Source of the DNA: Planctomycetaceae bacterium
GTDB lineage: Bacteria > Planctomycetota > Phycisphaerae > Phycisphaerales > SM1A02
Direction: 5' to 3'
Assembly (NCBI GenBank): GCA_947474065.1
Contig: CANJHD010000006.1
Location: 1-64,000, forward strand
DNA: 64,000 nt
Translations under genes and position numbers: made by a program
Notes under the pieces: model-generated
Seen by the model: the letters and a program-made list of their open reading frames with translations, nothing else
Database searches by the model: none
Told to the model about the DNA's origin: nothing
Shown: one piece after another, positions 1,586 through 38,476 of the stretch
Layout of the letters: every line of letters begins with the position of its first letter
Numbering within the stretch: position 1 is the stretch's first letter

Positions 1586-1714
1586 GCGGGGCTCCTCTGG
1601 GCAAAGTGTATTCGGGCTGCCCGGCAGAGTGCTACAGAATGACGGCAATTACTGCCGGAGATGCGACCTCCACCCCCGCGATCGCCTCAGCGCACCCGTT
1701 ATGATGCGCCCACT

Positions 1715-2614: not shown

Positions 2615-2644
2615 TGCAATGCGCCGACCACGGCGCGCTGATCA

Positions 2645-2944: not shown

Positions 2945-2990
2945 CGTTGCAGTTGAGACTGAGTCGCAATATCATTGCGGTGCCGAAGCC

Positions 2991-3293
2991 ATGTCAGTAC
3001 CCACCGACCGTTCCCAGCCAGTACGCATCCCCCTGACCCAGCTTCGGCGCGGCCAGCGGGCGATTGTTGATTGCTCGGAACTGACTGATTTGCCGGAGGG
3101 CGATCGCTGCCTACTCCATGCGATGGGAATGCATCACGAATGCGAGGTGCGAGTCTGCCGTCCAGGAACGCCGTGCATTGTCCAGATTGACAGCACGCGC
3201 TTGGGAATCTCCGGCGACGTTGCTCGCAAGATCTTGGTGACGCCGATCGAAGATTCCCCGGGCACGCCAGCCGCCCCGGAATCCCGCGCGTGA
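2991..3293 (+). CDS. feoA: FeoA family protein
   Basis: PVRIPLTQLRRGQRAIVDCSELTDLPEGDRCLLHAMGMHHECEVRVCRPGTPCIVQIDSTRLGISGDVARKILV; FeoA/SH3-like fold pattern; overlaps feoB start (GTGA). Confidence 0.85.
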   Translation: MSVPTDRSQPVRIPLTQLRRGQRAIVDCSELTDLPEGDRCLLHAMGMHHECEVRVCRPGTPCIVQIDSTRLGISGDVARKILVTPIEDSPGTPAAPESRA

Positions 3294-11751: not shown

Positions 11752-11859
11752 CCACCGCCGCGCTACACTTTCCCACCGCTTGCGAATGCCCCCGTGGGCT
11801 CGAGAGCGGAGCGCCCTGCTCACTACGGTCGAGCGCTGACAGGCACCTAAGACTCCCCC

Positions 11860-13836: not shown

Positions 13837-13875
13837 TCCAACATTCCTAGCCTGTCAGCCCCCGCGAGAACCACG

Positions 13876-14625
13876 ATGGCCATCCTTGTCATCCAACATT
13901 CCAAGATCAGTGACCCGGGCCTCCTGGGCAATTCGCTCCGTTCACACGGACAGCGCGTGCGGATCGTCCGCGTTGACCTTGGTCAGCCGCTGCCGAATGA
14001 CCTTGATGATGTGCACGGCTTGATCTCGCTCGGCGGTCCACAGTCGGCCAATGGCAATGATCCGTGGGTGAACCCTGAGTTGGAACTCATGCGCGAGGCG
14101 CACGCTCGACAGATCCCGGTGCTTGGACTGTGCCTCGGTGCACAGATGCTCGCCAAGGCACTCGGCGGCGAAGTGACCACCATGACCAAGCCGGAACTCG
14201 GTTGGGTCGCTGTGCGCGCCGCAGGTATCGGCGTTGAAGACGTGCTGCATGCCGGCATCGGCTGGACGCAGTACGTCTTTGAGAGCCACGGCGAACATGT
14301 TTCGAAGTTGCCCGAAGGCGCGACGGTTGTCATGAAGGGCGAAGCATGCCCCGTGCAAGCGTTCCGCGTTGGCGCACTGAGCTACGGCATTCAGTACCAC
14401 CCGGAGTGGACGCGCGAGACGATCCTTGGCGAAATTGACTCCGCGACCGACGCGGAACTTGCGGTCGTTGGCACTACGAAGGCAAACCTGCGCCAAGCCA
14501 CCGCCGAGCACTACCCCGCCGCAGAACGCAACGCGAATCGCGTCTTTGAACTGGCAAATTTGCTGCTATTCCCGGCCGGTCGCCAGCAAACTGGACTGGT
14601 TGCGCCAGGCTGGGTGCATCACTAA
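13876..14625 (+). CDS. Class I glutamine amidotransferase domain protein (GMP synthase-like)
   Basis: LISLGGPQSAND..., PVLGLCLGAQMLAKALGGEV, YGIQYHPEWTRE catalytic Cys/His/Glu motifs. Confidence 0.88.
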   Translation: MAILVIQHSKISDPGLLGNSLRSHGQRVRIVRVDLGQPLPNDLDDVHGLISLGGPQSANGNDPWVNPELELMREAHARQIPVLGLCLGAQMLAKALGGEVTTMTKPELGWVAVRAAGIGVEDVLHAGIGWTQYVFESHGEHVSKLPEGATVVMKGEACPVQAFRVGALSYGIQYHPEWTRETILGEIDSATDAELAVVGTTKANLRQATAEHYPAAERNANRVFELANLLLFPAGRQQTGLVAPGWVHH

Positions 14626-20817: not shown

Positions 20818-22182
20818 GTGACCACTGGACACCGCGCCAATCGAACTGCTCACACCGCCGTTGTTGGACTGCAATGGGGGGACGAAGGCAAAGGCAAGAT
20901 CGTTGACCTTCTCACTTCGGAGCATGATGTCATCGTCCGTTACAACGGCGGTGCAAACGCTGGCCACACCGTGCAGGTGGGCGACGAACGCTACGCGCTG
21001 CATCTGATTCCTTCCGGCATTCTCTACGGCGACAAGACCTGCGTCATTGGCAACGGCGTGGTGGTTGATCCCGAGAAACTTCTGCAAGAGATCGACGCGT
21101 TGCGCACGCGCGGCATCCGCGTTGGTGACAATCTTCGCATCAGCGATCGAGCTCATGTTGTCATGCCCTATCACAAGGAGCAAGACGCTGCGCTTGAGGA
21201 ATACCTCAGTTCCAAGACCGCGCACGCGCAAGGGAACCTCTCGATCGGAACCACGCGCCGCGGCATCGGTCCTGCCTATGCAGACAAGATTCGACGCTCG
21301 ACGGCAATTCGCGTTGGCGATCTTCTTGACGCCGATTACCTGCGCAGCCGACTGCATGTGATTTGCACGCTGCGTACTGCGGAACTCGAAGCGCTCGGCG
21401 TGCGCACCGCCCCGCTCGACCCCGATGCATTGGCCACCCGTTACGCGGAGTTCGGCGAGCGCCTCCGTCCGCATGTGGATGACTCGGTGTATGCGCTGCA
21501 CGATGCCATGCGCGCTGGCAAACGCATTCTGTTTGAAGGCGCGAATGCCAGCCTGCTTGACATTGATCATGGAACATTCCCCTACGTAACAAGCAGTAAC
21601 TGCTCAACATTGGGTATCCCTTCGGGCACTGGTGTTCCCGGCAGCGCCATCGGTCGGGTACTGGGCATCATGAAGGCGTACAGCACACGCGTCGGCGCGG
21701 GTCCCTTCCCAACCGAACTTGCTAACGAACTCGGCAACCAGATCCGCGAACGCGGCCGCGAGTACGGCACCACCACTGGTCGACCGCGCCGCTGTGGCTG
21801 GCTTGACTTGGTGGCAGTCCGCTACAGCGTCATGGTGTGCGGAGCAACTGGAATCGCTTGCACGCTGCTTGATGTCCTATCCGGATTTGAAGAAATCAAG
21901 TTGTGCGTTGGCTATCGGTTACCAAACGGCACGACTACAGACCGTTTCATCCCCGACGCGCATCGGCTTGAGGGCGTCACTCCGATCTACGAAACCATGC
22001 CGGGCTGGAGCGCGGAGATTCGCGATGCATCCGACCGGTCCACGCTGCCGCAGGCTGCACAGCGCTACTTGGCGCGCATCGAAGAAATCACTGGAGTGCC
22101 TGTCGAGGTAGTGAGCCTTGGGCCAGAACGAACGCAGACACTTGTAGATGGACGGCGCGCCGTGGCGCTTGCTACCGCGTGA
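20818..22182 (+). CDS. purA: Adenylosuccinate synthetase
   Basis: VVGLQWGDEGKGKIVDLLTSEHDVIVRYNGGANAGHTV...GTTRRGIGPAYADK...TTGRPRRCGWLDL. Confidence 0.97.
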   Translation: MTTGHRANRTAHTAVVGLQWGDEGKGKIVDLLTSEHDVIVRYNGGANAGHTVQVGDERYALHLIPSGILYGDKTCVIGNGVVVDPEKLLQEIDALRTRGIRVGDNLRISDRAHVVMPYHKEQDAALEEYLSSKTAHAQGNLSIGTTRRGIGPAYADKIRRSTAIRVGDLLDADYLRSRLHVICTLRTAELEALGVRTAPLDPDALATRYAEFGERLRPHVDDSVYALHDAMRAGKRILFEGANASLLDIDHGTFPYVTSSNCSTLGIPSGTGVPGSAIGRVLGIMKAYSTRVGAGPFPTELANELGNQIRERGREYGTTTGRPRRCGWLDLVAVRYSVMVCGATGIACTLLDVLSGFEEIKLCVGYRLPNGTTTDRFIPDAHRLEGVTPIYETMPGWSAEIRDASDRSTLPQAAQRYLARIEEITGVPVEVVSLGPERTQTLVDGRRAVALATA

Positions 22183-22186
22183 ATCA

Positions 22187-22912
22187 ATGCGAGTTCCCCG
22201 GCACATTGCAATCATCATGGACGGCAACGGACGCTGGGCGGGCGCACGCGGGCTGCCGCGAATCGCTGGCCATCGCGAAGGCGCACGACGCGTGCGTGGA
22301 ATTGTTGAAGAGTGCGCGCGCCTCGGGGTGGAAGCGCTAACGCTCTATTCATTTTCAAGTGAGAACTGGAAACGGCCGGAGGACGAGGTCACCGCGCTCA
22401 TGGAGCTGGCCCGTCACCAATTGCAACTTGAGCGGCAGATGATGCTTGCCAACAACATTCGCTTCCGACGCATTGGTCGTCGCGAAGGATTGTCCGCGCC
22501 GGTGCTCGCCGAGTTCGACCGCACCGAGGACGAAACCAGCAATTGCACAGGAATGACCCTGTGCCTGGCCATGAACTACGGTTCTCGGCAAGAAATGGTG
22601 GACGCCGTTCGAACCATCGCCCTCCGAGTCCGCCGCGGTGACCTTGACCCGGCCGCGATCGGCGAAGACACCATGTCGGCGGCCCTTGAAACCCATGGGC
22701 TGCCAGATCCCGACCTGCTCGTTCGGACCGCCGGCGAGCGCCGATTGTCCAATTTCCTGCTTTGGCAGGTCAGTTATGCCGAGATTTACGTGACTGATGT
22801 GCTGTGGCCGGAATTTAAGGTCCCGGAACTACAAGCGGCCGTAGCGGACTTTGCTGCGCGACGGCGAACCTACGGCGGGCTCGACGGGGCACGCCCAACC
22901 CCAGCCACCTGA
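22187..22912 (+). CDS. uppS: Isoprenyl transferase (undecaprenyl diphosphate synthase family)
   Basis: PRHIAIIMDGNGRWAGARGLPRIAGHREGARRVR...LTLYSFSSENWKRP...DLLVRTAGERRLSNFLLWQVSYAEIYVTDVLWPEF. Confidence 0.96.
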   Translation: MRVPRHIAIIMDGNGRWAGARGLPRIAGHREGARRVRGIVEECARLGVEALTLYSFSSENWKRPEDEVTALMELARHQLQLERQMMLANNIRFRRIGRREGLSAPVLAEFDRTEDETSNCTGMTLCLAMNYGSRQEMVDAVRTIALRVRRGDLDPAAIGEDTMSAALETHGLPDPDLLVRTAGERRLSNFLLWQVSYAEIYVTDVLWPEFKVPELQAAVADFAARRRTYGGLDGARPTPAT

Positions 22913-23025: not shown

Positions 23026-26000
23026 ATGCGATTACCCCGCCGCGCGATGTCCTCTTGTTTCCTAGCCATCTTCATGGTCGTTGTCGGCGTGGCGGCGCGT
23101 CCAGCAGCGGCTCAGTGCAACGATCCATCCGCTGCCTGCACCACTGCCGCAAACTCAACTTGGCTTGGTGATCTGAACGCTGACAATCTTGTCAACCAGG
23201 CGGACATTGATGTCTGGACAAGTTGCATGCTCGGTCAACCGACCTACTGCATATCCGGCGACTTCAATTTCGACCACGCAATTGATGATGTCGATCGCAA
23301 TTACTTGGGGCAACTTGTGGCGATGGCCTCAAACTCCGTGATCGGCAAACTCGCCAAAGTGACGCTGTCCGAGGTGCGCGTTCGCAAGCCAAACGACCAG
23401 ACCGATCCCACCGTCCCGCAGTCGCGCTACGTCGAGATACGCATCCCGACATCTGCAGTTGGTGTTGTCAGCGCGCCGACCGTGAATGCTCCGGTTGCTG
23501 GCACCGACGGGATGCGTGCGTTTCAAGCGGGCTGGTTCTACTTAAAGATTGCCCGGTCCAACAACAGTTCTGGCACCGACCAAATTAGCGGAACAATCGC
23601 GGTAGTCGAATCGCTCGCAGGCCTCGCGTGGGTGTCCAACCCGCTCGATGTCAATTCACGCGGATTGGGACTGCTTGCAGACTCATCCTTCACGGGCGAT
23701 GTCCTTGACGCAGTACCCGCGGCACTTACCACATACATCTTCGATAGCAGCACTTCCCTGGCGTTCCCGACCGGCGCCGCCGCGAACGGTCGCGTGTTTC
23801 CATCTGAATCATCGACCAATGTCACGCATGTCATCGTCTTTCGAAATCCAAATCCAGCGAACACGCGTGCGTACCCGACCGTTGGCCAACGCGTCAATGT
23901 TCCAACCGCAACAGATGCAACCCAAACGTGCGACCTCGCGTGGAGCGTGCCTGGCGCGCTGACCTTGCCGCCGTGGGATGCGATCGTGGATGCAGTCACC
24001 ATTATTCGCGATCCCAACCAAAGCATCTACGGATGCATCTTTGCCGATACCGGCAGAGCGAACATCGGTCCCGTAGGCAGCGTTTCTGATTCATTTGCAC
24101 CGCCACACATCTACCGATGTCGCAACGCGGGCAATTTGACCAAGGGTCCAACTGCCGTTACTCAAGTGAGCGATACGCCATTTTCCCGCAATCCATCCTG
24201 CTCCGCGACGGTCACTGGATGCGGCGAACCGAATGCCGACGGAACGAACCGCAGCTGTTTCCAATCGCAGACGGGACCGACTTGCTCAGACTCCGACTGC
24301 TGCAACGCAGTCTGCAATAAGGACCCCCAGTGTTGCAGTGTGACGTGGGACCAGATCTGTGCCGATGAGGCAACTAGCATCTGCGATGGCTGTGGAAGCA
24401 CCACTGCAAGTTGCTTTGCACCGCACCAAACGGCTTCGTGCAGCGATGCGAACTGCTGCGCCCGCGTCTGCGCGATCGACCCAACCTGCTGCGATGTCAC
24501 CTGGGATTCCGACTGCGTTATCCTTGCGACGGCAAACTGCCTGACGTGCGGCATCGGTGGCAGCGGAGCATGTGACACCGTTCACAGCCTTCCATATTGC
24601 GACGATTCCATTTGCTGCACCACTGTTTGCAACCTGAATCCTTACTGCTGCACCACCAGTTGGGACCAGAATTGCGTCAACACCCAAGCCATTGCCTGCG
24701 CAAGTTGTGGCACCCTCAACTCTGGTCCATGCTGCATCGCACACTCCACCCCGTACTGCAATAACGGCCAGTGCTGCGCATCAGTCTGCTCGCTTGATCC
24801 CTTCTGCTGCATCTATTCCTGGGACATCAGTTGTACGCAGATTGCGCTCATCACTCCAAGTTGCAGCAGCGAGAGTTGCGCATGCGGCGCTACGCCGAAT
24901 CCCGGCGAAGAAACAAGTTGCTTCATCTCCCATCCGCGCATCGGTTGCGCTGACTCCTTCTGCTGCCAAACCGTGTGCATGCGCGACCCGTACTGCTGCT
25001 TCGTTACTTGGGATGCAGCGTGCGTAGCAATTGCTAACGATCTGTGCTCATCACAACCCGGCTGCATTGATCCAAACACATCGCTGCCAGTGAATGGCAG
25101 TTGCTACATCGCGCACCCAACCACAATCGGATGCGATAAGCCAGGCTGTTGCAGCCAAGTGTGCGCGGACCCCCTGTATGCATACTGCTGCCAAGTCGGA
25201 TGGGATGCCGCCTGTGCACTCCGAGCCGTTGACATCTGCGACCAATGCGGCGACCCACTCTCAGGGAGCTGCTATTCCCAACACTCGTCTCCGAATTGCG
25301 CCGACGGAACATGCTGCACATCCGTCTGCAACGTCGATCCATTCTGCTGCGAAAGCCAATGGGACTCGACCTGCGTTACTACGGCCACCGTTATTTGCAC
25401 GAGCCCAATCAGCGTGTGCGGCTCCAACAACGCCTCGCTCCGCAGTTGCTGGATTCCCAACTACACCCGTGGCTGCAGCGACGGCGCATGCTGCATTGCT
25501 GTATGCCGAGACATCGACCCCTACTGCTGCGAAGCCCGTTGGGACGCCGTGTGTGCGCGTGAAGCCACCTACATGTGCACGGCAACATTTGTGGTGACAA
25601 TTGGACGCGAAGGCTGCCTCTTGGCTCATGCATCAGCAGGGTGCGCCAATGCTGATTGCAGCCGCGCCGTCTGCAGCGTAGATCCATCATGCTGCACTAC
25701 TGCTTGGGATCAAGGATGCGTACTGGTTGCAACGGCCGTCTGCCCTGCCCCAGAATCGTGCCCGGCATTTGGTGACTGCTTCGCTTCGCATGCCAACCCA
25801 GGCTGCCATGACTCAACCTGCTGCAACGGGGTATGCGCGGCGGATCCGTCGTGCTGCCAAGGCGAGTGGGACAGCTCATGCGTGAGCACAGCGCGCACCC
25901 TCTGTAAGGTTCCCGCCAACAGCGGCTGGACGTGCCCATGTCACGGCGGATGCTTCGAAGCTCACGACAATCCGGGGTGCGAAGACGGCTCCTGCTGCTC

Positions 26001-27438
26001 CATTGTGTGCAACATCAGCCCCTCCTGCTGCGATGCTGATTGGGATAGTGCCTGTGTTTCCATCGCACGCGAATATTGCTGCGGCGCCATCGGATGCGGC
26101 TCCGGCTGCAACAAGCCCTGCTTGATTCCTCACCAGGAGCCCTACTGCAACGATCCATACTGCTGCGATGCAGTGTGCCGTAATGATCCGTTGTGCTGCA
26201 GCGCTTCTTGGGACGCGTTGTGCGCCGCGGGCGCACTTGCCCGCTGCGGAAGTTCTTGCGGACTGCAAGAGTCCGGCGATTGCTTCGTGGAACATGACCT
26301 TCCTGGCTGCAACAAGGGCAATTGCTGCAGCAAGATCTGCATCCTAGACCCGACATGTTGCACCATTACTTGGGATACAGCGTGCGTCGACATGGCCCTG
26401 CAGCCAGCGAACGCCACTAACTGTGTGCGTCCAGTATGCGGTGACTTCGATGCGGGTTCGTCATGCGAGCCGCACGCTGGCCAAGCATCAAGTGACCCAG
26501 TCTGTTGCGCGGCTGTGTGCGCAGAAGACACCTACTGCTGCAATACCCAATGGGACGCAGATTGCGTCGATATTGCCCGAACCATCACCTCGTGCGGCTG
26601 CACCTATGTGTGCGGCGATGTGTGCGCTGGAGATTGCTGCCGCGCCCACGACAACGGCGCTTGCAACGATGCCGCATGTTGCGCCTCGGTCTGCGCGCAG
26701 GACACCTATTGCTGCGACACCCTCTGGGATAGCGTGTGTGCCGGAGTAGCCCGTGATACCTGCACGGCAAAGAACGAGGCCTGCCCCGTCCCTCCGTGCG
26801 GCAGCGATCTGCTGCAGGGCTGCTGCGTGCCGAGCATCATCCCGAACTGCTCCGACCAGAGCTGCTGCACGCGCGTATGTGCCATCGACTCGTTCTGCTG
26901 CGACACCGCATGGGATGTCACTTGTGTAAATCTTGCTGCCGAGGATCCTTCTTGTGGGTGTGACTCAAACAATTGCGGTGATGCCAGCACTGGAAGTTGC
27001 CTGCAAGTACACACCACCCCGTTCTGCAATGAACTTGGCTGCTGCCAAACCGTGTGTGCCTTCCAACCGTCGTGCTGCGATGCGCAATGGGATGCCGACT
27101 GCGTAGCAACCGCCCAATTCTTCTGCGGCAGCGGGAACTTCACTGGACTGCTGGACGCGTTCCGTGGCGGGCCGATTGGAAATACTGGTCGCGCTCAGCC
27201 ACCTGCTGGCTGGATTCCTCCCCGTGAACGCGGCGCGATGCGCCATCCAAAGCCTCTTCCACCGTCAATAGCGGTACCGAAACGCCCCGCCGTTGATACC
27301 AAGCCGGTCCCGCGGTCGGATGGCATCCAAGTTCAGACCGCACCAGCAACGCTGATGAATACCGGCGTGAAGCCGGGTGCAGGAATGCAGACGGGCACGT
27401 TTGGCGCGAAGGCCGGCAAGCCTGATACGTCGAAGTAA
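23026..27438 (+). CDS. Giant secreted Cys-rich tandem-repeat protein with dockerin-like N-terminus
   Basis: Signal peptide MSSCFLAIFMVVVGVAARPAAAQC; LGDLNADNLVNQADIDVWTS...GDFNFDHAIDDVDRNYLG (dockerin/EF-hand-like pair); about 17 repeats C-x8-C-x4-CC-x3-C-x5-CC-x7-C. Confidence 0.9.
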   Translation: MRLPRRAMSSCFLAIFMVVVGVAARPAAAQCNDPSAACTTAANSTWLGDLNADNLVNQADIDVWTSCMLGQPTYCISGDFNFDHAIDDVDRNYLGQLVAMASNSVIGKLAKVTLSEVRVRKPNDQTDPTVPQSRYVEIRIPTSAVGVVSAPTVNAPVAGTDGMRAFQAGWFYLKIARSNNSSGTDQISGTIAVVESLAGLAWVSNPLDVNSRGLGLLADSSFTGDVLDAVPAALTTYIFDSSTSLAFPTGAAANGRVFPSESSTNVTHVIVFRNPNPANTRAYPTVGQRVNVPTATDATQTCDLAWSVPGALTLPPWDAIVDAVTIIRDPNQSIYGCIFADTGRANIGPVGSVSDSFAPPHIYRCRNAGNLTKGPTAVTQVSDTPFSRNPSCSATVTGCGEPNADGTNRSCFQSQTGPTCSDSDCCNAVCNKDPQCCSVTWDQICADEATSICDGCGSTTASCFAPHQTASCSDANCCARVCAIDPTCCDVTWDSDCVILATANCLTCGIGGSGACDTVHSLPYCDDSICCTTVCNLNPYCCTTSWDQNCVNTQAIACASCGTLNSGPCCIAHSTPYCNNGQCCASVCSLDPFCCIYSWDISCTQIALITPSCSSESCACGATPNPGEETSCFISHPRIGCADSFCCQTVCMRDPYCCFVTWDAACVAIANDLCSSQPGCIDPNTSLPVNGSCYIAHPTTIGCDKPGCCSQVCADPLYAYCCQVGWDAACALRAVDICDQCGDPLSGSCYSQHSSPNCADGTCCTSVCNVDPFCCESQWDSTCVTTATVICTSPISVCGSNNASLRSCWIPNYTRGCSDGACCIAVCRDIDPYCCEARWDAVCAREATYMCTATFVVTIGREGCLLAHASAGCANADCSRAVCSVDPSCCTTAWDQGCVLVATAVCPAPESCPAFGDCFASHANPGCHDSTCCNGVCAADPSCCQGEWDSSCVSTARTLCKVPANSGWTCPCHGGCFEAHDNPGCEDGSCCSIVCNISPSCCDADWDSACVSIAREYCCGAIGCGSGCNKPCLIPHQEPYCNDPYCCDAVCRNDPLCCSASWDALCAAGALARCGSSCGLQESGDCFVEHDLPGCNKGNCCSKICILDPTCCTITWDTACVDMALQPANATNCVRPVCGDFDAGSSCEPHAGQASSDPVCCAAVCAEDTYCCNTQWDADCVDIARTITSCGCTYVCGDVCAGDCCRAHDNGACNDAACCASVCAQDTYCCDTLWDSVCAGVARDTCTAKNEACPVPPCGSDLLQGCCVPSIIPNCSDQSCCTRVCAIDSFCCDTAWDVTCVNLAAEDPSCGCDSNNCGDASTGSCLQVHTTPFCNELGCCQTVCAFQPSCCDAQWDADCVATAQFFCGSGNFTGLLDAFRGGPIGNTGRAQPPAGWIPPRERGAMRHPKPLPPSIAVPKRPAVDTKPVPRSDGIQVQTAPATLMNTGVKPGAGMQTGTFGAKAGKPDTSK
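24253..27126 (+). repeat. About 17 tandem Cys-rich protein modules (roughly 50-62 aa each)
   Basis: Counted by eye from SCFQSQTGPTCSDSDCCNAVCNKDPQCCSVTWDQIC to SCLQVHTTPFCNELGCCQTVCAFQPSCCDAQWDADC; consensus (S/G/D)CFxxHxxPxCxDxxCCxxVCxxDPxCCxxxWDxxCVxxAxxxC. Confidence 0.9.
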
Positions 27439-27451
27439 ACGACTGGGAACA

Positions 27452-30400
27452 CTAACGAAAGTCCCGTGATCGCTGCGCGATATGGTCGCCTCGCGCCATG
27501 TGGCTCAGTTCATCCGTCAGGTCAGTCACACGGCGCACTAAAAGGTGCGTGACCCCGGAACGATGCTCAACGGTCCCCTCTGCCAAGAGTGCCGATGCAT
27601 GGCGGGCTATGGTGCGATATCGCTCGCAGACGCGAGGTCGAAAGATCAAATTGGCAATGCCCGTCTCGTCCTCAATGGTCATGAACATGGTCCCTGATGC
27701 CGTTGATGGACGTTGCCTACACAGCACTAAGCCCGCCACCGCTGCAGTTGGGTGCTCTGTTGCTTCTCCGATGGAACGCAGATGAATGCATTCCGATCCT
27801 CCGCGTCGCGCAATGGATTCGCGCAGAAATCGAATCGGATGGTCGTGCAATGAGAGTCCGGTACTGGAGTAATCGGCGGCCACCGAGCGAAGTGCCGAAA
27901 CGGGCGGCAACGGCTGAGTCTGCATGTCAAAGAGCGTGGCGCCGCGTGCGGCCGCATCGTCAAGAACAGGCGTGTCTCCATCGCGCAACGCGCGCACCTG
28001 CCAAAGGGCCTGCTGCCGCGGGATTCCGATGCCCGCAAATGCGTCTGCGGCAGCCAAGCGCCGCAGCGCGTGCAGACTGCACCCCGACGCGCGCCAGAGT
28101 GACTCCACGCACGGAAACAATGGGCGCGATCGTTCGCAACAAGTGCCCGTGAGCGTTGAATCTGTATGAACTGCCGAGCCAGCGTGTTGAAGACTGCCGC
28201 CCATGCGCAGGCTTCGCGCTGCAGCCGCCACTGCGCAACCATCTTCAGCGCGCAAACCGGTCACCATACGCAGGCCGAGGCGCAGCGCTGGGTGCGAAAA
28301 TTCTCCCTCAAGTGTGCAATCCCATTCGCTTTCCGAAACATCAATCGCACGGACATCGACGCCGTGCTCACGCGCGTCGCGCACCAACTGCGCGGGCGCG
28401 TAAAAACCCATCGGCTGACTGTTGAGAAGCGCTGCCGTGAATGCTGCCGGATGATGACACTTAAGCCACGCAGAAACATAAATAAGAAGTGCAAAGCTTG
28501 CTGCGTGACTCTCGGGAAATCCGTAACCGGAGAACCCCTGGATCTGCCCGAACACCTGCGCCGCAAAATGCTCCGGATATCCGCGCGCACGCATACCGGA
28601 TTCCAACTGATCTTTAAATGCGGCGATTTGATTTCCGGACCGTTTCCACGAAGCGATCGCACGGCGCAGCCTGTCCGCCTCGCCGGGAGTGAACCCCGCC
28701 GCCACTACCGCAAGCAACATCGCCTGCTCCTGAAAGAGCGGCACTCCAAGTGTCTTTCCAAGCACCGCGCGAATTGCCTCATTGGGATAGTGCGTCGGAT
28801 CGATGCCATCGCGACGGCGTAGGTAGGGATGCACCATGTCGCCTTGGATAGGCCCCGGACGCACAATGGCTACCTCAATAACGAGGTCATAGAAGCACCG
28901 CGGTTTCAGGCGCGGCAACATGCTCATCTGCGCGCGGCTCTCGATTTGAAACACGCCCACAGTGTCGGCGCGACACGCCATCTCGTAGGTGGCCGCATCT
29001 TCGGCGGGCACGGTGCGGTACATCAGTGCGCCCGCGCCGGAGGAGTCGAGCGGCCAGCTCGGCACTGGATGCGCGTTTCCCAAGTCAATCGCCTTGCGAA
29101 TGGCCGTGAGCATGCCAAGCGCTAATACATCCATCTTCAACATGCCCATGGCATCAATGTCGTCTTTATCCCACTCAACAATAGTGCGTGCGTCCATGCG
29201 AGCATTGCGCACCGGTACAAGTTCGCACAGTGGGCCATCAGTGATGATGAAGCCTCCAACATGTTGCGAAAGGTGCCGAGGGAATCCTTCAAGGGCTGCT
29301 GCAATGCGCAACGCGTCCGGCGACTCAGGCGGAACACCAAGCGCTTTCGCTGCCTCGCGCAAGGAGCTGCGGTCGCGGAAGCAGATCACTTCCGCGCAAA
29401 GAGCGGCACGGGATCGTCCCCACGTGCGGTAGATGAATTGAATAACCTCCTCGCGACGTTCGTGTTCAAAGTCAACGTCTATGTCTGGCGGCTCATCTCG
29501 TTCACGGCTAATAAATCGCTCAAAGAGCATGTCACTGCGAGTGGGATCAACGGCGGTAATGCCTAAGCAGAAGCAGACGGCGCTGTTTGCCGCAGCACCG
29601 CGCCCTTGGCAGAGAATGTTGTTCGCGCGTGCAAAGCTGACAATGGCATGCACGGTGAGGAAGTAACACGCATAACCAAGTTCAGCGATGATTGAAAATT
29701 CATGCTCAAGCTGCGCACGAACCTTTGTGGGGATGCTTTCTCTGCATGGAGAAATCGCCGGCCAACGCTGGGCAGCGCCATCTTCAACCAGGATTCGCAA
29801 ATGCGCCATCGGATCTACGCCGGGCGGCGCAACTTCGCGTGGATAGCGATAGCGGAGTGTCGACATAGAGAATCCAGCACAGCGCTCTGCTATTTGCACG
29901 CTGCGCGCAATCGACGCTTCACATATATCGCGCGGGACGTCGCAGAGAACATCGTGCATCCCTTTGCCGTCAACCAAGTGCCGCGCATCATCAGGCAGGA
30001 GCCGCGCCCCGCGGTAAGCACAACCATGAGCGCGATCGACCGCACGGGTGCGCTCAAAGGAACGTAACTCCTGCACCGTATGCCCGGCGCGGATCGCAGT
30101 GAGAATGTCTTGCAATTCCTGACGATTTCGGACATGGCAGTATGGATTGTTGCTCGCGAGAAGCGGCACGCATACTTCAGAGGAAATCCACTCCAACTGC
30201 AGCAAACGGAGTGCATCATCTGGTCCTGAGTGACGGACAAATCCAAGCGAAAGTCGATCATCATCAAAGACGGTGCGAAGCCAGCGAAGTGATTCAAGAA
30301 AGCAGGGCTGCATCGCGCCATATTCATCTGGCGGAATGACGATGGCATGTACGCCGGGAATTGCGAACGGAGCAAGCGGTCGATCTGTACCTGGCGCTCG

Positions 30401-30904
30401 TCCAGATCCGTGACCAGATCTATCGCCGGGCTCGCCACTGCCAAGCGACTGCACACTTGCATCAACAAGATCATGGAGCCACAGATGGCACGCAGATGAA
30501 TTGCGCGCAGCAGCGCGCGATTCGATGCCCGCTGCAACCGCCGCAACATTTGCGTCCATGTCCAGCGTCCAACCCGCCCGACGCTTGCCGAGGGTCAATA
30601 GGCGACACATGCGCGCGTAGCCGTCTACAGATTCCGCGAGCAGCACCAACTCCAAGTGCGTTGGCTCTTCATCGGCGCCAAGTAGGAAACTGCAACGCGT
30701 GCCAACTACCAATTGCATGTCGTGCTGCTGCGCGGCGACATGCGCGCGCACGACGCCGGCCATTGTGTGACGATCAGCAATCGCTACTGCGCCAAGTTGA
30801 AGTTTCGCCGCGCGAGCGATGATCTCTTCAGGATGGCTTGCACCTTCAAGGAAGGAGAAGTTGCTGAGAGCCGCGAGTTCGCAGAATGGGGTATTTCCAA
30901 GCAC
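27452..30904 (-). CDS. dnaE2: Error-prone DNA polymerase (DnaE2/ImuC family)
   Basis: FCELAALSNFSFLEGASHPEEIIARAAKLQLGAVAIADRHTMAGVVRAH (PHP), GRGAAANSAVCFCLGITAVDP, PPDIDVDFEHERREEVIQFIY, C-terminal OB fold; GTG start. Confidence 0.95.
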   Translation of the reverse strand: MLGNTPFCELAALSNFSFLEGASHPEEIIARAAKLQLGAVAIADRHTMAGVVRAHVAAQQHDMQLVVGTRCSFLLGADEEPTHLELVLLAESVDGYARMCRLLTLGKRRAGWTLDMDANVAAVAAGIESRAAARNSSACHLWLHDLVDASVQSLGSGEPGDRSGHGSGRAPGTDRPLAPFAIPGVHAIVIPPDEYGAMQPCFLESLRWLRTVFDDDRLSLGFVRHSGPDDALRLLQLEWISSEVCVPLLASNNPYCHVRNRQELQDILTAIRAGHTVQELRSFERTRAVDRAHGCAYRGARLLPDDARHLVDGKGMHDVLCDVPRDICEASIARSVQIAERCAGFSMSTLRYRYPREVAPPGVDPMAHLRILVEDGAAQRWPAISPCRESIPTKVRAQLEHEFSIIAELGYACYFLTVHAIVSFARANNILCQGRGAAANSAVCFCLGITAVDPTRSDMLFERFISRERDEPPDIDVDFEHERREEVIQFIYRTWGRSRAALCAEVICFRDRSSLREAAKALGVPPESPDALRIAAALEGFPRHLSQHVGGFIITDGPLCELVPVRNARMDARTIVEWDKDDIDAMGMLKMDVLALGMLTAIRKAIDLGNAHPVPSWPLDSSGAGALMYRTVPAEDAATYEMACRADTVGVFQIESRAQMSMLPRLKPRCFYDLVIEVAIVRPGPIQGDMVHPYLRRRDGIDPTHYPNEAIRAVLGKTLGVPLFQEQAMLLAVVAAGFTPGEADRLRRAIASWKRSGNQIAAFKDQLESGMRARGYPEHFAAQVFGQIQGFSGYGFPESHAASFALLIYVSAWLKCHHPAAFTAALLNSQPMGFYAPAQLVRDAREHGVDVRAIDVSESEWDCTLEGEFSHPALRLGLRMVTGLRAEDGCAVAAAARSLRMGGSLQHAGSAVHTDSTLTGTCCERSRPLFPCVESLWRASGCSLHALRRLAAADAFAGIGIPRQQALWQVRALRDGDTPVLDDAAARGATLFDMQTQPLPPVSALRSVAADYSSTGLSLHDHPIRFLRESIARRGGSECIHLRSIGEATEHPTAAVAGLVLCRQRPSTASGTMFMTIEDETGIANLIFRPRVCERYRTIARHASALLAEGTVEHRSGVTHLLVRRVTDLTDELSHMARGDHIAQRSRDFR

Positions 30905-30924
30905 GGGAGCAGCGCCTTGTTTAT

Positions 30925-30946
30925 TTGTACGGTGTTTGTTAGCATA
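30925..30946 (-). promoter_or_regulatory. Candidate damage-response operator/promoter of dnaE2
   Basis: Plus-strand TTGTACGGTGTTTGTTAGCATA; 18-bp core identical to that at 35288; on the minus strand TATGCT could serve as a -10 element. Confidence 0.6.
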
Positions 30947-31027
30947 CTAGTTTGGGCGTGAACTGCTAAGTGCCGACCGCGAATACGCTGCAAAGCCCAC
31001 ACGCCGACACCCGAGCTAGCACCACTC

Positions 31028-32311
31028 ATGCGCATCGCACCCACCACACTTCTCGCTTCCGCCCTGCTCTGTTCCGCGTTCGTGAATTGCGGGGTCGTTG
31101 CGATTGCGCCGCCCGCGGTCGCTGAGCAAACAAATCCAAGCGCACCCGTTGTGACGCCACCCGCGACACCAGCTACAGCGCCAGTTACAGCGCCAGTTAC
31201 AGCGCCATCCACGCAGATGCCGCAATCGCCGCTGCTCAATACCCCAGAAGCTGTATCCGCTGCTGCAAATGCAACGCCGGAGCGCACCCTGCCAGTCGAT
31301 CCGGTACTTCTTCAGTCCGGCCAAGTGGTTCCTGGCGAGCGATCAATCTTTGTCACCTACGAAGGCAATACCTACATCTTTGCAAACACCAGTACGCGAG
31401 ATACATTCAATCGCGACCCGGCCCGCTATGCCGCACAACAAGGCGGCGCTTGCGGACGCATGGGTCCCCTTGGTGGACTCGGAGATGCGCAGAGATATGC
31501 GCTGCAGGAGGGCATGCTGTACTTCTTTGACTCGGATGACTGCATGAAATTGTTCCGTGCTCAACCGCGGCGCTACATGGAGCCGCTTGATGAAATGCCC
31601 TCTGGAACACCGGAGCAGCAAACCGCGGGACTCGCCGCGATCGACCGATGGGTTGCGTGGGCGGGCGGGAAAGAAGCTATTAAGGCTGCGAATTCTTTCA
31701 CCCAGGTGTCCACGCGTCGCGTGCAACAAGGCAAGGATTCATGGGACATCACCGAGACCCTGGAGTTTGCCGGACCACACACCATGCGCCGCGTTGATGC
31801 ATGGCAGAAAGTGGGTGGCACGCCGAAGGACAACTACCAGTACGAAACCCTCGTCACTCCTGAGAGTGCGATGATCACTTCAAATAATGGTCGCAAGACC
31901 CCGCTCGTCGATTCGCGACGCAAGGCGTTTGAGCGATCCATGAACCGCCAGCCGTATGCGATCCTGCGCGCCCGCTACCGCCCCGAGGCTGGACTGCTTG
32001 CGCTCAAGACGGGAGAGGGAACGCTCGGCGAGGCGCGATGCGACTACATCGCCACCTGGTTTGAGGGGAACGCCACCTTCTTAGCGATTGACAAGGCAAC
32101 TGGCCGTCTGGTTCAGATCAGCCATGCCGGTCGCGACGGCGAGGCGCGCGTTGCTTCGTTGACCTTGGATGCCGTGGCGTATGCAGGTCCAGAGGCGCTT
32201 CGACTGCCCACGCAATGGGTTATCTCGAAGACCGGTGAGAAAGAGGGTCTTAAGGGGCCATTGGCTTCGGTGAAGGCTGGGCCGGTGATGGCACAGCCGA
32301 CAGCACCGTAA
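31028..32311 (+). CDS. Secreted protein with two YHS-like segments
   Basis: Signal peptide; VPGERSIFVTYEGNTYIFANTSTRDTFNRDPARYAAQQGGACGRMGPLGG...YALQEGMLYFFDSDDCMKLFRAQPRRYME; N-terminal TAPVTAPVTAPVTAPS repeat. Confidence 0.7.
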   Translation: MRIAPTTLLASALLCSAFVNCGVVAIAPPAVAEQTNPSAPVVTPPATPATAPVTAPVTAPSTQMPQSPLLNTPEAVSAAANATPERTLPVDPVLLQSGQVVPGERSIFVTYEGNTYIFANTSTRDTFNRDPARYAAQQGGACGRMGPLGGLGDAQRYALQEGMLYFFDSDDCMKLFRAQPRRYMEPLDEMPSGTPEQQTAGLAAIDRWVAWAGGKEAIKAANSFTQVSTRRVQQGKDSWDITETLEFAGPHTMRRVDAWQKVGGTPKDNYQYETLVTPESAMITSNNGRKTPLVDSRRKAFERSMNRQPYAILRARYRPEAGLLALKTGEGTLGEARCDYIATWFEGNATFLAIDKATGRLVQISHAGRDGEARVASLTLDAVAYAGPEALRLPTQWVISKTGEKEGLKGPLASVKAGPVMAQPTAP

Positions 32312-32323
32312 TTGCTGTGGGCT

Positions 32324-32428
32324 GAGTTCCGGCGGGTTGAGTTCCGGCGGGTTGAGCTCCGGCGGGTTGAGCTCCGGCGAGTTAAGTTCCGGCAGGTTTA
32401 GTTCCAACGGCCTGAGTTCCGGCAGGTG
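32324..32428 (-). repeat. Seven imperfect 15-bp tandem repeats encoding (PAGTQ)n
   Basis: Plus-strand units gagttccggcgggtt x2, gagctccggcgggtt, gagctccggcgagtt, aagttccggcaggtt, tagttccaacggcct, gagttccggcaggtg. Confidence 0.9.
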
Positions 32429-32906
32429 GAATTCCAGGGGGCGCCTTCGTGTCTCCCGGCACCGTATTCGAGCGCCAGAAACGGGCTGTGTACTGCCATG
32501 ACTCGCGCTGACCGGGGATCGGAACATAGGTCCCGAAGTTGCCTCGATTCTCGGCGCGCCGCTGGTAGACCGGATCCATTTCCGTCGTCTCAATCTTGCC
32601 AGCATTCACGCAACTCCACTTCACCATTCCTGCACCCAGTTCACGGGCAGCTTCGAGCGCCTCCGCGTCACCAGCCTGAGGACCGGAGGCCAGAAATGTG
32701 CTTGAACCAATTTCGGTTGCCGTTCCTTCGGCGGGTGCGTCCTGCACAACCTGCGCCTCAAGTACGGGCGAGAGGCGGTCCCCGCGGTAGTTCATCAAGA
32801 ACGGATTAGCGGTGCACCCCGCAAGGAATGCAACAGGAAAGATGAATGCAAGTACGACGCGGCGAGACAACGAACGTGCGTTTGTCACAATGAATGTGGG
32901 GTTCAT
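32382..32906 (-). CDS. Lipoprotein of unknown function, downstream of imuB
   Basis: RRVVLAFIFPVAFLAGCTANPF lipobox; starts about 10 nt after the imuB stop; ends inside a PAGTQ repeat. Confidence 0.7.
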   Translation of the reverse strand: MNPTFIVTNARSLSRRVVLAFIFPVAFLAGCTANPFLMNYRGDRLSPVLEAQVVQDAPAEGTATEIGSSTFLASGPQAGDAEALEAARELGAGMVKWSCVNAGKIETTEMDPVYQRRAENRGNFGTYVPIPGQRESWQYTARFWRSNTVPGDTKAPPGIPPAGTQAVGTKPAGT

Positions 32907-32915
32907 GCCAACATT

Positions 32916-34160
32916 CTACGCATCCACACGCCTCACGCCACCTTGCCCAAGGCGTGCGTGTAATTGATCAATCAGTTCGCCGATAGCACGCTGAGTTGCA
33001 GCGTGGTGGTCATTTTCAGAGTGATTATTTACGCGATGGTTGCCCTCTCCTGCCATAACTGACGCACTTGATCCGCTCATGTTCGTTGCTGCCATACCAA
33101 TCGCGCCACCGAGAAACGGCGTACCACCGCGGCATCGCCCTATGCGCGTTGCAGTAAGCAGGATTCGTTCGATACCTTCGCCGCGTTCATGCTCGCCAAG
33201 ATGCATGCGCTGTATGCGCGGCCGCAGAATTGACCACAAGTGACGCGGGTCGCGCGTTGCTTCTCCAAAATGAATCGTTCCAATCACAGTGGCGAGACGC
33301 GCCCGCTCCACGCGCACCGCAAGCGTTCGCACGCCGCGTCCGTTTGTGCAGCCGACGCGGCTTGTACGTACAGATCCGTCTTCGTTTCGAACAACATCGC
33401 CTGATGACGCGATCGCTGCGCAGAGTATTTCAATAGCCTGCATACATGCCAGCTCCACCGCCTCTTGTTGTGCGCATGGTGATGCAAATACAAATTCGCC
33501 AACAACCGGAACTGGCGGTGCCACCGCGCAAAATGGCCACGGCCGCAGACCAAATGCCATGTCAAGCCGCTCGCCGAGCTCCGGACCGTAGCGATCCGCA
33601 AGCGCCGAGCGTGCAATCACTCGCGCCTCGCCGATGCGCGTGAGATTCACCTCGCGCAGTGCTGCGCAGATGGCGTCGGATATCCGCAAACATTGAAACG
33701 GCAACTGTTCGAACTCGGCGATGTCAAGACTTGGGTGATGGGGGCGAGAGGGATGAGTTGCATACGAATTCCCATATCCAAGCCCCACGCCCATTGCCTG
33801 TACGACTGCTTGACCACTCGACGGCGCGCTGCCGAGTGCGTGAACAATTCCGCGCCGAGTGAGACCGCGCGCGATGCGACCGACCACGCGTCGCGCTCCA
33901 CCATTCACGCGCAGGCATCCGCTGACGTCAAGCAAGATGAGTGGCGGCATTGATGTCGGCATCGACGGTGGCGACGATGAAAGTAATGCCGTCGATGCCG
34001 ATGGCGTCGATGGCACTACACCCGTACACCCGACATGTTCAAGATGAACTCGCGGTGTGAATCGCATACACCACATAGCCATACGAGTGAGCGTTTCTGG
34101 CGGTCGCGACCATCCGGGAAGCACAATCGCGATAAACCATGGAATGACAGTCGGCGGCAT
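32916..34160 (-). CDS. imuB: ImuB-like (Y-family polymerase-related) protein, shortened form
   Basis: MWCMRFTPRVHLE...LILLDVSGCLRVNGG (cf. ImuB LLLDITGCAHLFGGE), LPFQCLRISDAICAALREVNLTRIGEARVIARSALADRYGPELGERLDMAFG, C-terminus ELIDQLHARLGQGGVRRV; follows imuA; TGAGGT Shine-Dalgarno-like site upstream. Confidence 0.75.
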   Translation of the reverse strand: MPPTVIPWFIAIVLPGWSRPPETLTRMAMWCMRFTPRVHLEHVGCTGVVPSTPSASTALLSSSPPSMPTSMPPLILLDVSGCLRVNGGARRVVGRIARGLTRRGIVHALGSAPSSGQAVVQAMGVGLGYGNSYATHPSRPHHPSLDIAEFEQLPFQCLRISDAICAALREVNLTRIGEARVIARSALADRYGPELGERLDMAFGLRPWPFCAVAPPVPVVGEFVFASPCAQQEAVELACMQAIEILCAAIASSGDVVRNEDGSVRTSRVGCTNGRGVRTLAVRVERARLATVIGTIHFGEATRDPRHLWSILRPRIQRMHLGEHERGEGIERILLTATRIGRCRGGTPFLGGAIGMAATNMSGSSASVMAGEGNHRVNNHSENDHHAATQRAIGELIDQLHARLGQGGVRRVDA

Positions 34161-34181
34161 TGATAAACCTCACATGCGTGC

Positions 34182-35288
34182 TCACGCAACGCCTCGACCA
34201 TCGTTTCCGCGCGCCCAGCGCGTGCCTCGACTGGTGACTCGGTCGTGCGAACGCGAGCGGGTGATTGCACCAGCTGTTGGCTCCGCGTTGTCAACATCTT
34301 TAAGCGCCCGCAACTCCAGCGCACTCCGCGCTGCGTGATCGGCGATCAATCGCTCGCCACGCTTCGCGCGTCGGCGCGCAGCCGCTGCCTCGGGCGCGGG
34401 CGCTTCGGCAGTCCCCTGCCACTGCCACGCTTGTGTGACATGCGCGCTGCATTCACTGGAAATATGCATGGATGTTCCCTTGGAACGTTCGAGCGTCACT
34501 CGCCATGCTGGTTCGGGCGGTATGCGTGTCATGAGCCCCGCGTCCACCATGCCACGCTCTTGCATCATTCGTAACCACGGAACGCGATCGGTGATGACAT
34601 GCGGAGTCCGCTCGGAGCGCTCTACCATCCAGCGCGTTGCACCAGCCGTCAGCACACTTCGACGCGCGTCGGTGCGGTGTTCCGTGCCGCGCATGCACAG
34701 GAGACATGTATCGGATGCAGCCAACTGCAGTCGTCGTGTCGCTGCCAAGTCGAAGCCGCGGCCGTCGGCGATCACCGCGCAAATGCCTGGGCAGCGCACC
34801 GCCTGCTCGATTGCCCAGAGCCGCGCGCCGGTGTCGTGCGCGGGCACATCAACCAAGAGTGAACGATCATGAAGTCGCGCATCGGGCCAGGCGCGCGGGA
34901 CACGCTGGCCAAACATCCCAGCGATCGGCGCGCGCATCCCACGCACCAGGGCAGCCGGTGACGGCCACGCCGCGCGACCAACCCAGACCACATGTCGATG
35001 CGCACCCGCTCGCTGTCGATCGTCATGCAGAAGCGCGTTCCATGCCAACTGCACCAACACCGCGCGCACCTCAGGGAGCGCGCCCCACCACTCGTGTAAC
35101 CCTGCACGCGCAATGCCGCCACCGAGCGCAGCGTCGATTGCCGTCCACCCCGTGGCTATATGCATGGGGCGCTCAGTCATCGTTTGAGCGCGACCCTCGA
35201 GGGTTCCAATGCGCTCAACGAGCGCAGCGCGTACGGCGCGGCGTTGCTCGGTGCCTTCGGATAGAAGTGAGTAACCCATGGGATTCAT
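34182..35288 (-). CDS. imuA: ImuA-like RecA-fold protein (start codon uncertain; MTERPMHIATGW at about 35180 is an alternative)
   Basis: ATGWTAIDAALGGGIARAGLHEWWG, HVVWVGRAAWPSPAALVRG, DRSLLVDVPAHDTGARLWAIEQAVRCPGICAVIADGRGFDLAATRRLQLAA; upstream of the imuB-like gene. Confidence 0.8.
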   Translation of the reverse strand: MNPMGYSLLSEGTEQRRAVRAALVERIGTLEGRAQTMTERPMHIATGWTAIDAALGGGIARAGLHEWWGALPEVRAVLVQLAWNALLHDDRQRAGAHRHVVWVGRAAWPSPAALVRGMRAPIAGMFGQRVPRAWPDARLHDRSLLVDVPAHDTGARLWAIEQAVRCPGICAVIADGRGFDLAATRRLQLAASDTCLLCMRGTEHRTDARRSVLTAGATRWMVERSERTPHVITDRVPWLRMMQERGMVDAGLMTRIPPEPAWRVTLERSKGTSMHISSECSAHVTQAWQWQGTAEAPAPEAAAARRRAKRGERLIADHAARSALELRALKDVDNAEPTAGAITRSRSHDRVTSRGTRWARGNDGRGVA

Positions 35289-35416: not shown

Positions 35417-38400
35417 ATGCACCACTCAATTCGATTCGCCACGCTGACTGCGCTCCTCATCACTTGCACTGCGATCGCGGCGCCACCCGTGCAGTCGACG
35501 CGGACTGGTCCTTCCACACAGCCAACCGCGACCCCGGGACCGAAGGTCGCCACAAAGGCGGTAGAGAAGCAGGCACCTCCGCAAGCACCGGAACCAACTC
35601 CCGCGCCGACTCCGGAACCAGCACCAATAGCGGAACCAACTCCCGCGCCAACTCCGGAACCAGCACCAATAGCGGAACCAACTCCCGCGCCAACTCCAGC
35701 ACCAACTCCAACACCAGCACCAACTCCGGAACCAACCGCTCAACCCGCCACGACGCCCAACACCGACACCGCCCCAGCGCCCGATCACGACAACGGCGAA
35801 ACACTCTGGCCGCAGACCGCCACCGTGGACGCCACCACTTACACGCTCTACACGCCACAATTTGAAACGATCTCCGGGACGCGCGCCACAGCACGCGCCG
35901 CATTCAGCGTGGAAATCACCGGAATGCCTGCGATGTACGGCGCACTGTTCTTCACCGCCGACCTCGATAACGACCTCGCCGCCGGCTTGATCGAAGTCTC
36001 AAACATGCTGGTGCAGAATTCGCAACTCGCCAACAATTCCGATGCATCCGCCGCGTCCGCCGAACTTCAGAAGATGCTCTTCGGCGTCACTTTCACGGTG
36101 AATCGCGCAACCGTCATGCAGAATATGCAAGTGGTCAAGGACCAGACCTCAACACGTGCGTCACTCAGTAACGCGCCACCAAAGATTCGAGTGATCAATC
36201 ACGCCGCAGTGCTTCTTCTGCTTGACGGCAAACCTGCACTGCGCGAACTCGGCGACAGCGGCATCGGTCTTGCACAAAACACACCTTCGCTGCTCGCCTT
36301 CGATAAAGCAACACGCACCTGGTTCACGCGGATCGGCACCGACACATGGTTGCACTCCTCGCGCTACACGGGTCCATACATTGAGGGCAAGACGCCTTCT
36401 GCAGCAGCGCTCAAAATCATCGCCGCGGCACTTCCGGAGCGACACCCTGCGGCCGTGCCAACCTCGCCGCCACCCGCTGGCAAGACGCCCGAAGTCATCG
36501 TCAGCACATCACCCATGTGCCTCGTAAGTATCAACGGACAGCCGAACCTCACGCAGGTAGCCGACGGACTGTTTGCCGTTGCCAACGCCAATTGCGATCT
36601 CTTCACCACGAGCGCCGACAACGCGTGGTGGCTCTTGGCTTCCGGACGCTGGTTCACATCCACCGATCTCGTCAACGGCCCGTGGACCTACGCAAAGCCC
36701 GCGTCCATTCCAGCATCGTTCGTGCAGATTGATCCGCACGGAACATGGGGCAACGTCCTTGCATCAGTGCCGAACACACCGCAGGCAACCGAGGCTGTCT
36801 ATCAACAGACGATCCCGCATGTTGCAACACTTGACCGCGCACTTGCGAAGGCGAAACTCTCCACCATCGGCGGTCCCGCGCGCTTCAAGCCGATTGTCGG
36901 CACCAACATGCAGTACGCCACGAATGCAGGTTCGCCGCTCATCTATTGCAAAGACATGTATTACCTCTGCGATACCGCAGCGTGGTTTGTTGCAAGCGCG
37001 CCGAACGGACCGTGGACGCTCTGTGACGCAGTTCCAGAGTCGATCTACACCATTCCGCCAAGTTGCCCGATCTATGCAGCCACCTATGTGCAGGTCTACA
37101 ACTCCAACGCCGAATCCGTGACGTTCGGATTCACTGCGGGCTACATGAATAGCTATGAGAATGACGGCACCGTTGCGTTCGGCACCGGATACACCTATCC
37201 CGGATCGATCGGCGCGCAAGATGTCGTGCTCGGCGACAATTCAGACATCACTGACGATGACACCTGGGACAACTACGGCGGCTATCCAAATACCTACGGC
37301 TACTGGCCGAGTTACGGCGACGACTACGGCGGTTGGGGTTTCTACAGTTACCCCGGCTGGGGCGACTACGGCCTCTACCCCGGCGCATATTGGGGCGGCG
37401 ACGGTTGGTGGGGCGGCGGTCGCGGCTTCGGCGTTGGCTATGCGCTCGGCATGGGCTTCGGCGATGCGTGGCGCTGGGGCTATCACCCGTGGGGCTGGCG
37501 CGATGGCAGCGGTTGGTGGAACAATCATTGGGGCGGCGCATATCGGCGCGGCTGGGACAACGCAGCCACGAGTTACAACCGAGCGGGCGCAGCTGGTGAT
37601 ATCAGTCGCTACGGGCAGATCGGTCCGTATCGCAAGACACCCGGCGGCGCGAACCGTGCCGAAGGAAACGGCGCACGCGACGAAGCTGCATGGCATCACG
37701 CAACAAACAGCAGTGACAATGTCATGGCCAATCGCAACGGACAAGTGACGCAGCGTCGCGGTGATCAGATGTACACGCGCTCCGACGGTGCGTGGCAAAA
37801 GGCTGGCGGCGATAGCAATGGATCGGGTGTTGGCAACGCGGGCGGTCGCGGCGCGGGAGCAACAAGTAATAGCGACGGCGCACGCCAGAATTCCGCGGCA
37901 TCCGGCAAAGCGGACGGCTCGTGGCGCGATGGCGCGGCGCGCGCAGGTCAACGGACCGGCAGCGGCAATTTCCAAGAGCGCGACGGTTCCCCGTGGGCAT
38001 CCTCACAAGCACGCAACACGAACGCTGACGGATTCCGCCCGGATCCAAACCACAACTTTGATGGAAGCCCACGCGGGGCGTTCGCGCGCGGTGAAACCAA
38101 CTACGCCACTCGAAGCGATGGTGGCAATAGCAGTAACGGCGCTCAACAAGGAAACGGTGCTTCAGAGGGCGCCCCATACCAGCGCGGCGGCAATTTCAAC
38201 GGCGGCGGCTGGGGCATCAGCGACCAAGGCGGCACCTACGCACAACGCTGGGGCAACGACTACGACCGCGGTCTGCCCGGCTTCAATCAAGACACCGGTT
38301 GGTACGACCGCACTGTCTCGCGCCCCGTCAATCCGTACGGTTACGGATACGGCGGTTGGTCGAACGGCTACCGCGGCTACGGACAGCTCAGCGGCTGGGG

Positions 38401-38476
38401 CGGAATGAATGGATACGGCGGAATGGACCGCGGCGGAATGGGCGGGCGCGGCGGTGGCGGCGGTCACGGGCGCTGA
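35417..38476 (+). CDS. Large secreted protein with Pro/Thr/Ala repeats, WF/GPW modules and Gly/Trp/Tyr/Asn-rich C-terminus
   Basis: Signal peptide; EPTPAPTPEPAPIA repeats; GRWFTSTDLVNGPWTYAKPASIPASF and AAWFVASAPNGPWTLCDAVPESIYTIPPSCPIYAATYVQVYNS modules (resemble proteins annotated carbohydrate-binding family V/XII); low-complexity GGWGFYSYPGWGDYGLYPGAYWGGDGWWGGG. Confidence 0.8.
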   Translation: MHHSIRFATLTALLITCTAIAAPPVQSTRTGPSTQPTATPGPKVATKAVEKQAPPQAPEPTPAPTPEPAPIAEPTPAPTPEPAPIAEPTPAPTPAPTPTPAPTPEPTAQPATTPNTDTAPAPDHDNGETLWPQTATVDATTYTLYTPQFETISGTRATARAAFSVEITGMPAMYGALFFTADLDNDLAAGLIEVSNMLVQNSQLANNSDASAASAELQKMLFGVTFTVNRATVMQNMQVVKDQTSTRASLSNAPPKIRVINHAAVLLLLDGKPALRELGDSGIGLAQNTPSLLAFDKATRTWFTRIGTDTWLHSSRYTGPYIEGKTPSAAALKIIAAALPERHPAAVPTSPPPAGKTPEVIVSTSPMCLVSINGQPNLTQVADGLFAVANANCDLFTTSADNAWWLLASGRWFTSTDLVNGPWTYAKPASIPASFVQIDPHGTWGNVLASVPNTPQATEAVYQQTIPHVATLDRALAKAKLSTIGGPARFKPIVGTNMQYATNAGSPLIYCKDMYYLCDTAAWFVASAPNGPWTLCDAVPESIYTIPPSCPIYAATYVQVYNSNAESVTFGFTAGYMNSYENDGTVAFGTGYTYPGSIGAQDVVLGDNSDITDDDTWDNYGGYPNTYGYWPSYGDDYGGWGFYSYPGWGDYGLYPGAYWGGDGWWGGGRGFGVGYALGMGFGDAWRWGYHPWGWRDGSGWWNNHWGGAYRRGWDNAATSYNRAGAAGDISRYGQIGPYRKTPGGANRAEGNGARDEAAWHHATNSSDNVMANRNGQVTQRRGDQMYTRSDGAWQKAGGDSNGSGVGNAGGRGAGATSNSDGARQNSAASGKADGSWRDGAARAGQRTGSGNFQERDGSPWASSQARNTNADGFRPDPNHNFDGSPRGAFARGETNYATRSDGGNSSNGAQQGNGASEGAPYQRGGNFNGGGWGISDQGGTYAQRWGNDYDRGLPGFNQDTGWYDRTVSRPVNPYGYGYGGWSNGYRGYGQLSGWGGMNGYGGMDRGGMGGRGGGGGHGR

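Follow-up and report, generated by a model that had tools for sequence, protein, structure and literature searches.

The analysed window, a stretch of planctomycete DNA of 64,000 nucleotides, contains on its forward strand an open reading frame of 1470 aa (positions 23026–27438) that encodes a giant secreted 17-module protein, with orthologues in many genomes and a dN/dS of about 0.09. The protein starts with a signal peptide-like N-terminus (residues 1–29, MRLPRRAMSSCFLAIFMVVVGVAARPAAA; 23026–23112), which was read by eye in the translation and agrees with the signal peptide proposed in an earlier, sequence-only reading of this DNA. After this start come two paired, dockerin-like Ca-binding loops (residues 47–94; 23164–23307), a beta-rich domain (residues about 106–341; 23341–24048), an array of Cys-rich modules (hereafter CC modules) and a Pro-rich basic C-terminal tail (27127–27435), all on the forward strand; the same type of tail was seen in the translated orthologues of the genus. 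The match of the Ca-binding loops to Pfam PF00404 was below the cut-off (E=0.2), but the corresponding segment of the orthologue L197 passed with 9.8e-8. The AF2 model of the beta-rich domain had a mean pLDDT of 61 (best blocks 70–86), and the domain resembles lamin-tail domains by motif only, with no Pfam match and no significant fold match in the PDB. A catalytic domain was absent from the giant in the Pfam search.

The array spans residues about 410–1367 and consists of modules of about 44 residues with periods of about 52–63 residues. Modules 1 to 8, each detected as an HMM domain, lie at 24253–24384, 24409–24540, 24568–24699, 24727–24879, 24916–25047, 25099–25239, 25267–25398 and 25444–25578, the second and third of these being part of an AF2 model described below. 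Module 9 (25612–25743) is without the cysteine C4 and the linker cysteine C0, and module 10 (25774–25905) is the example quoted in the sequence-only reading. Modules 11 to 13 (25948–26079, 26116–26247 and 26278–26439) are followed by module 14 (26458–26595), which is without C2, and by modules 15 to 17 at 26632–26763, 26818–26955 and 26995–27126, all likewise HMM domains. About 17 Cys-rich modules had been claimed from the letters alone, and exactly 17 were counted, both as WDxxC motifs and as HMM domains. The very high Cys content noted at that stage was also borne out, with 187 Cys in the 1470-aa protein and 178 among the 977 array residues. The range of 8–10 Cys per module needed a small correction, the invariant set being nine Cys plus a tenth in the preceding linker.

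The core C-x4-CC-x2-[VI]C-x2-DP-x-CC-x3-WD-x2-C is present in 17 copies when small variants are included. When written as a strict degenerate DNA pattern, it gave 12 matches in the window, all inside the giant open reading frame, and none in 100 dinucleotide-preserving shuffles. A search for tandem repeats at the DNA level found none left in the gene, which indicates that the module duplications are old.

Directly upstream of the giant, at a distance of 113 bp and on the same strand, lies uppS (22148–22912; PF01255, E=3e-78), encoding undecaprenyl diphosphate synthase. Of the 18 neighbourhoods in which this could be tested, 17 have uppS 5′ of the giant and co-directional with it, and these include eight genomes from outside the genus. 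In three of the linked neighbourhoods outside the genus purA had moved to the other side, and in one genus (L203) the linkage was missing. The association is suggestive, yet hemW and purA likewise often lie near the giant, so it may reflect no more than synteny. The interval between uppS and the giant contained no match to a sigma-70-type promoter or an intrinsic terminator, so that an operon is neither proved nor excluded. In L206, a secreted reprolysin-like peptidase with FG-GAP repeats (11440–14355) is inserted in this interval, and a comparable FG-GAP protein occupies the same place in L210.

On the other side, a mutasome-like cluster (27452–35288) is convergent with the giant and ends 13 bp from it. 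The cluster holds a dnaE2-type polymerase gene and two genes read as imuB and imuA, which were assigned by position and conserved order, with a YHS-domain gene splitting them; dnaE2 is a downstream neighbour of the giant only within the genus. Beyond the cluster, positions 35417–38476 encode a secreted-looking protein of 1019 aa with PTPAPTPEP repeats, a Gly/Trp/Tyr-rich C-terminal half and no Pfam match.

Cysteine constraint and predicted fold of the CC module

The consensus of the module is xCxxxHxxPxCxDxxCCxxVCxxDPxCCxxxWDxxCVxxAxxxC. Among 429 non-redundant modules, the nine Cys columns were 94–100% invariant, the Trp was conserved in 100% and the Asp following it in 97%, and few residues other than Cys, W, D, P, H, V and A were conserved. 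The tenth cysteine, C0, sits in the linker, 4–13 residues upstream of the module. C0 and C4 strongly co-occurred (both present in 382 modules, neither in 19, discordant in 26; Fisher p=3e-18, a value inflated by relatedness), and the discordant cases in which C4 was present mostly had a C0 in a longer linker. A single ancient loss of C0 and C4 is shared by module 9 of several orthologues, while the other losses of this pair occurred at unrelated positions and in unrelated proteins. Similarly, C5 and C7 were lost jointly in all three modules that had lost either, two of the three being close relatives. Since two Cys pairs are thus lost together, the pattern is best read as five disulfides per module, with covariation backing two of the five probable pairs (C0–C4 and C5–C7). 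Extensive disulfides had been one of the options raised in the sequence-only reading, and the Cys pattern favours them.

Modules 2 and 3 were modelled with AF2 from 139 aligned pairs; the pLDDT was 93.2, and each module displayed the same three helices. The module is accordingly predicted to be a compact three-helix unit, and structure prediction, proposed earlier as a check on the modules, gave a consistent fold. Profile searches likewise yielded no match of the module to a characterised domain: Pfam gave none at E values up to 10, and NCBIfam and PHROG gave none. Neither of the two outcomes named beforehand as refuting the sequence-only reading was thus obtained. In the PDB sequence search the module had only chance matches, the remainder being weak dockerin matches. 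Foldseek, which is weak on small cystine-rich folds, found nothing significant for the module model in the PDB or among viral models, and a description of the module was not found in a literature search. The view that no named domain has this pattern was therefore upheld, and the module appears to be undescribed in the libraries and literature searched. A likeness to CCxxHDxC, which we take to be a phospholipase A2-type motif, was set aside, as the spacing differs and neither a PDB sequence match nor a fold match was obtained.

Disulfide-rich repeat domains of extracellular proteins include the EGF, thrombospondin and granulin types. Like these, the CC module is small, probably cystine-stabilised, found in arrays and mixed with extracellular domains; unlike them, it has an all-helical predicted fold and no match in Pfam.

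Conservation of the giant and distribution of the module

Exactly 17 modules were present in 13 intact orthologues of the giant, the one in the window included, and the giant of four other genera had 16, 18, 18 and 19. The module order of the orthologues was collinear with that of the window array (z of 6 to 12 versus shuffled order), and this collinearity held down to about 40% identity. In seven orthologues with 42–85% identity, 175–187 of the 187 Cys were kept, and in the four more distant of these seven the non-Cys residues dropped to 33–45% identity. Within the genus, dN/dS was about 0.09, with 0.07–0.09 in the array. The N- and C-terminal domains vary among genera, and the dockerin is absent from the orthologues L206 and L210, in which the 17-module array is kept. 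By sequence, the giant is a separate, conserved single orthologous gene. Such a stable module count and order points to a constraint on length or position; it is unusual among repeat proteins and makes a function of length or position testable.

The module also occurs outside the giant. Of the 29 module matches in the genome to which the window belongs, the giant accounts for 17; the remaining 12 fall in proteins with subtilase, FG-GAP, PPC and galactose-binding-like domains. Among 63 shorter module proteins, 14 had a dockerin, 12 a subtilase, eight a galactose-binding-like and one a reprolysin domain, and FG-GAP or C-type lectin domains were found in others; in all, the domains co-occurring with the module include NIDO, CARDB, lectin, FG-GAP and galactose-binding-like types. 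The module was present in 35 of the 37 genomes of the family, the own genome included, the exceptions being G017 and G022, and it was absent from all 24 genomes of other families in the order Phycisphaerales. In a sample of the phylum it was found in 10 of 395 genomes, nine of which belong to the same family, and the matches listed in a DNA pattern scan of the whole collection came almost only from Phycisphaerales and other Planctomycetota. The sequence-only reading had mentioned similar strings in planctomycete proteins, and related modules do turn up there. Judged from its sequence contexts, the CC module is a mobile extracellular domain that is nearly limited to one Phycisphaerales family. 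It would represent an unnamed, widely used planctomycete extracellular domain that current databases leave unmodelled.

Candidate roles of the giant

As the best explanation, we tentatively propose that the giant is exported and has a structural role, as a rod-like protein of fixed length in the cell envelope or on the cell surface; we infer its disulfide state, rod shape, envelope location and structural role from the features described above. A surface fibre or adhesin, a metal-binding exoprotein and an envelope structural protein, the roles suggested in the sequence-only reading, likewise stand as candidates. In the proposed rod, about five disulfides would staple each of the 17 compact three-helix modules. 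C0, the linker cysteine, would bond into the CC pair of its own module (C0–C4); in many tandem pairs it lies only a few residues past the last Cys of the preceding module, so that neighbouring modules would be joined by short, stiff connections. Rigidity is in this way argued from the Cys constraint. Attachment of the rod to other components of the envelope or surface would be the task of the dockerin-like and beta domains at its N-terminus and of the tail at its C-terminus. Because some members of the family (the two genomes named above) are without the module altogether, the giant cannot be a wall component that every member needs.

Cystine-rich YTV wall proteins, which are restricted to the class Planctomycetia (PMC10632474), have a proposed role in wall rigidity (PMC8567305, PMC10632474). 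Like these proteins, the giant is probably exported, Cys-rich, built of short repeated modules and restricted to planctomycetes; unlike them, it belongs to another class of the phylum, has no match to the YTV profile (PF07639) and has only a putative wall location. The profile matched in none of 61 relatives, while the search itself worked, giving matches in 9 of 151 genomes of the phylum from other families. The giant might be a functional analogue of the YTV wall proteins, which seem to be absent from its own family. For a Phycisphaerae lineage in which these are missing, it offers a concrete candidate for a structure of the envelope or surface. Secreted cystine-rich modular proteins were already known, as were cystine-rich wall proteins of planctomycetes, and we rate the fixed 17-module array as the distinctive feature. 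A bolder version, in which a helical rod with some 85 disulfides replaces the YTV wall in the Phycisphaerales family, founds a new class of bacterial envelope proteins and acquires its disulfides through an oxidation route that involves neither DsbA/DsbB nor VKOR, is unlikely.

A profile search for DsbA, DsbB, VKOR and Thioredoxin_4 gave no match in the genus (G000 and G001–G012; 13–14 genomes), and control searches did match. These genomes, two of them 97% complete and most incomplete, were covered for those four families, and the absence of Dsb and VKOR enzymes is a lead rather than proof of absence. This result counts against the proposed disulfide-stapled rod, and the genus, with its exported protein of 187 Cys, may use another thiol-oxidising system. 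That these enzymes are apparently lacking in a genus with so Cys-rich a protein raises a clear biochemical question.

The planctosome is a proposed extracellular peptide-degrading complex of freshwater (lacustrine) Nemodlikiaceae, modelled with dockerin, cohesin, LTD, M12B peptidases, P-domains and TSP3 (PMC6461901). The giant resembles its components in being large and secreted, in a putative dockerin-like segment, in a beta domain that is LTD-like by motif and in its similar lineage; the P-domains, TSP3 and cohesin belong to the model, and cysteine is unmentioned in the main text of that paper. As the main alternative, it is conceivable, though rather doubtful, that the giant is a planctosome scaffold or adaptor, in which the dockerin docks to a cohesin protein and the modules act as spacers or substrate-binding units. 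The dockerin, cohesin, LTD and M12B peptidases of the published model, the dockerin match of L197, the dockerin, subtilase, reprolysin, FG-GAP and C-type lectin domains of the shorter module proteins, and the reprolysin and FG-GAP protein between uppS and the giant in L206 all speak for such a role, as does a cohesin match over the cut-off in the own genome (PF00963, G000 contig C68, E=2e-5). However, cohesin matches were found in just 8 of 37 relatives, L206 and L210 retain the 17 modules with the dockerin missing, and the giant itself is without a catalytic domain.

It is quite unlikely that the modules serve in surface adhesion or ligand binding (to particles, polysaccharide or other cells), with many sites provided by 17 copies that are each specific to their position. 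The lectin, FG-GAP, NIDO, CARDB and galactose-binding-like partners of the module would suit this role, as would the divergence of modules by position with their order kept, but besides Cys the main conserved residues (W, D, P, H, V and A) are few and look structural, and no candidate binding surface was found. A metal-binding or metal-sequestering exoprotein acting through thiolates, for which the very high Cys content and the lack of recognisable disulfide-forming enzymes in the genus could be cited, is highly improbable and the least supported of the roles first suggested, because the Cys vanish in specific pairs; moreover, each module has an even number of them (ten), the model predicts a helical fold with confidence, and the module occurs in extracellular protein contexts.

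Occurrences outside the planctomycetes

A minimal form of the domain was found in Wenzhouxiangella (L073, 2293–2676), where a protein of 127 aa is made up of a signal peptide, just one CC module and an IPTL-CTERM-like end. Three more divergent cases were detected among 100 genomes of the same order. In addition, two gammaproteobacterial proteins (L191 and L192) end in the shortened variant CHSCVxAVCxxDxxCCxxxWDxxCV, which suggests that the domain has a divergent branch of wider occurrence. A search of plasmids gave no match. Finally, an IMG/VR contig of 61,750 bases (L218) encodes at positions 237–3875 a Cys-rich protein of 1212 aa in which one CC module is complete and a second is partial; a virus has apparently captured the domain.
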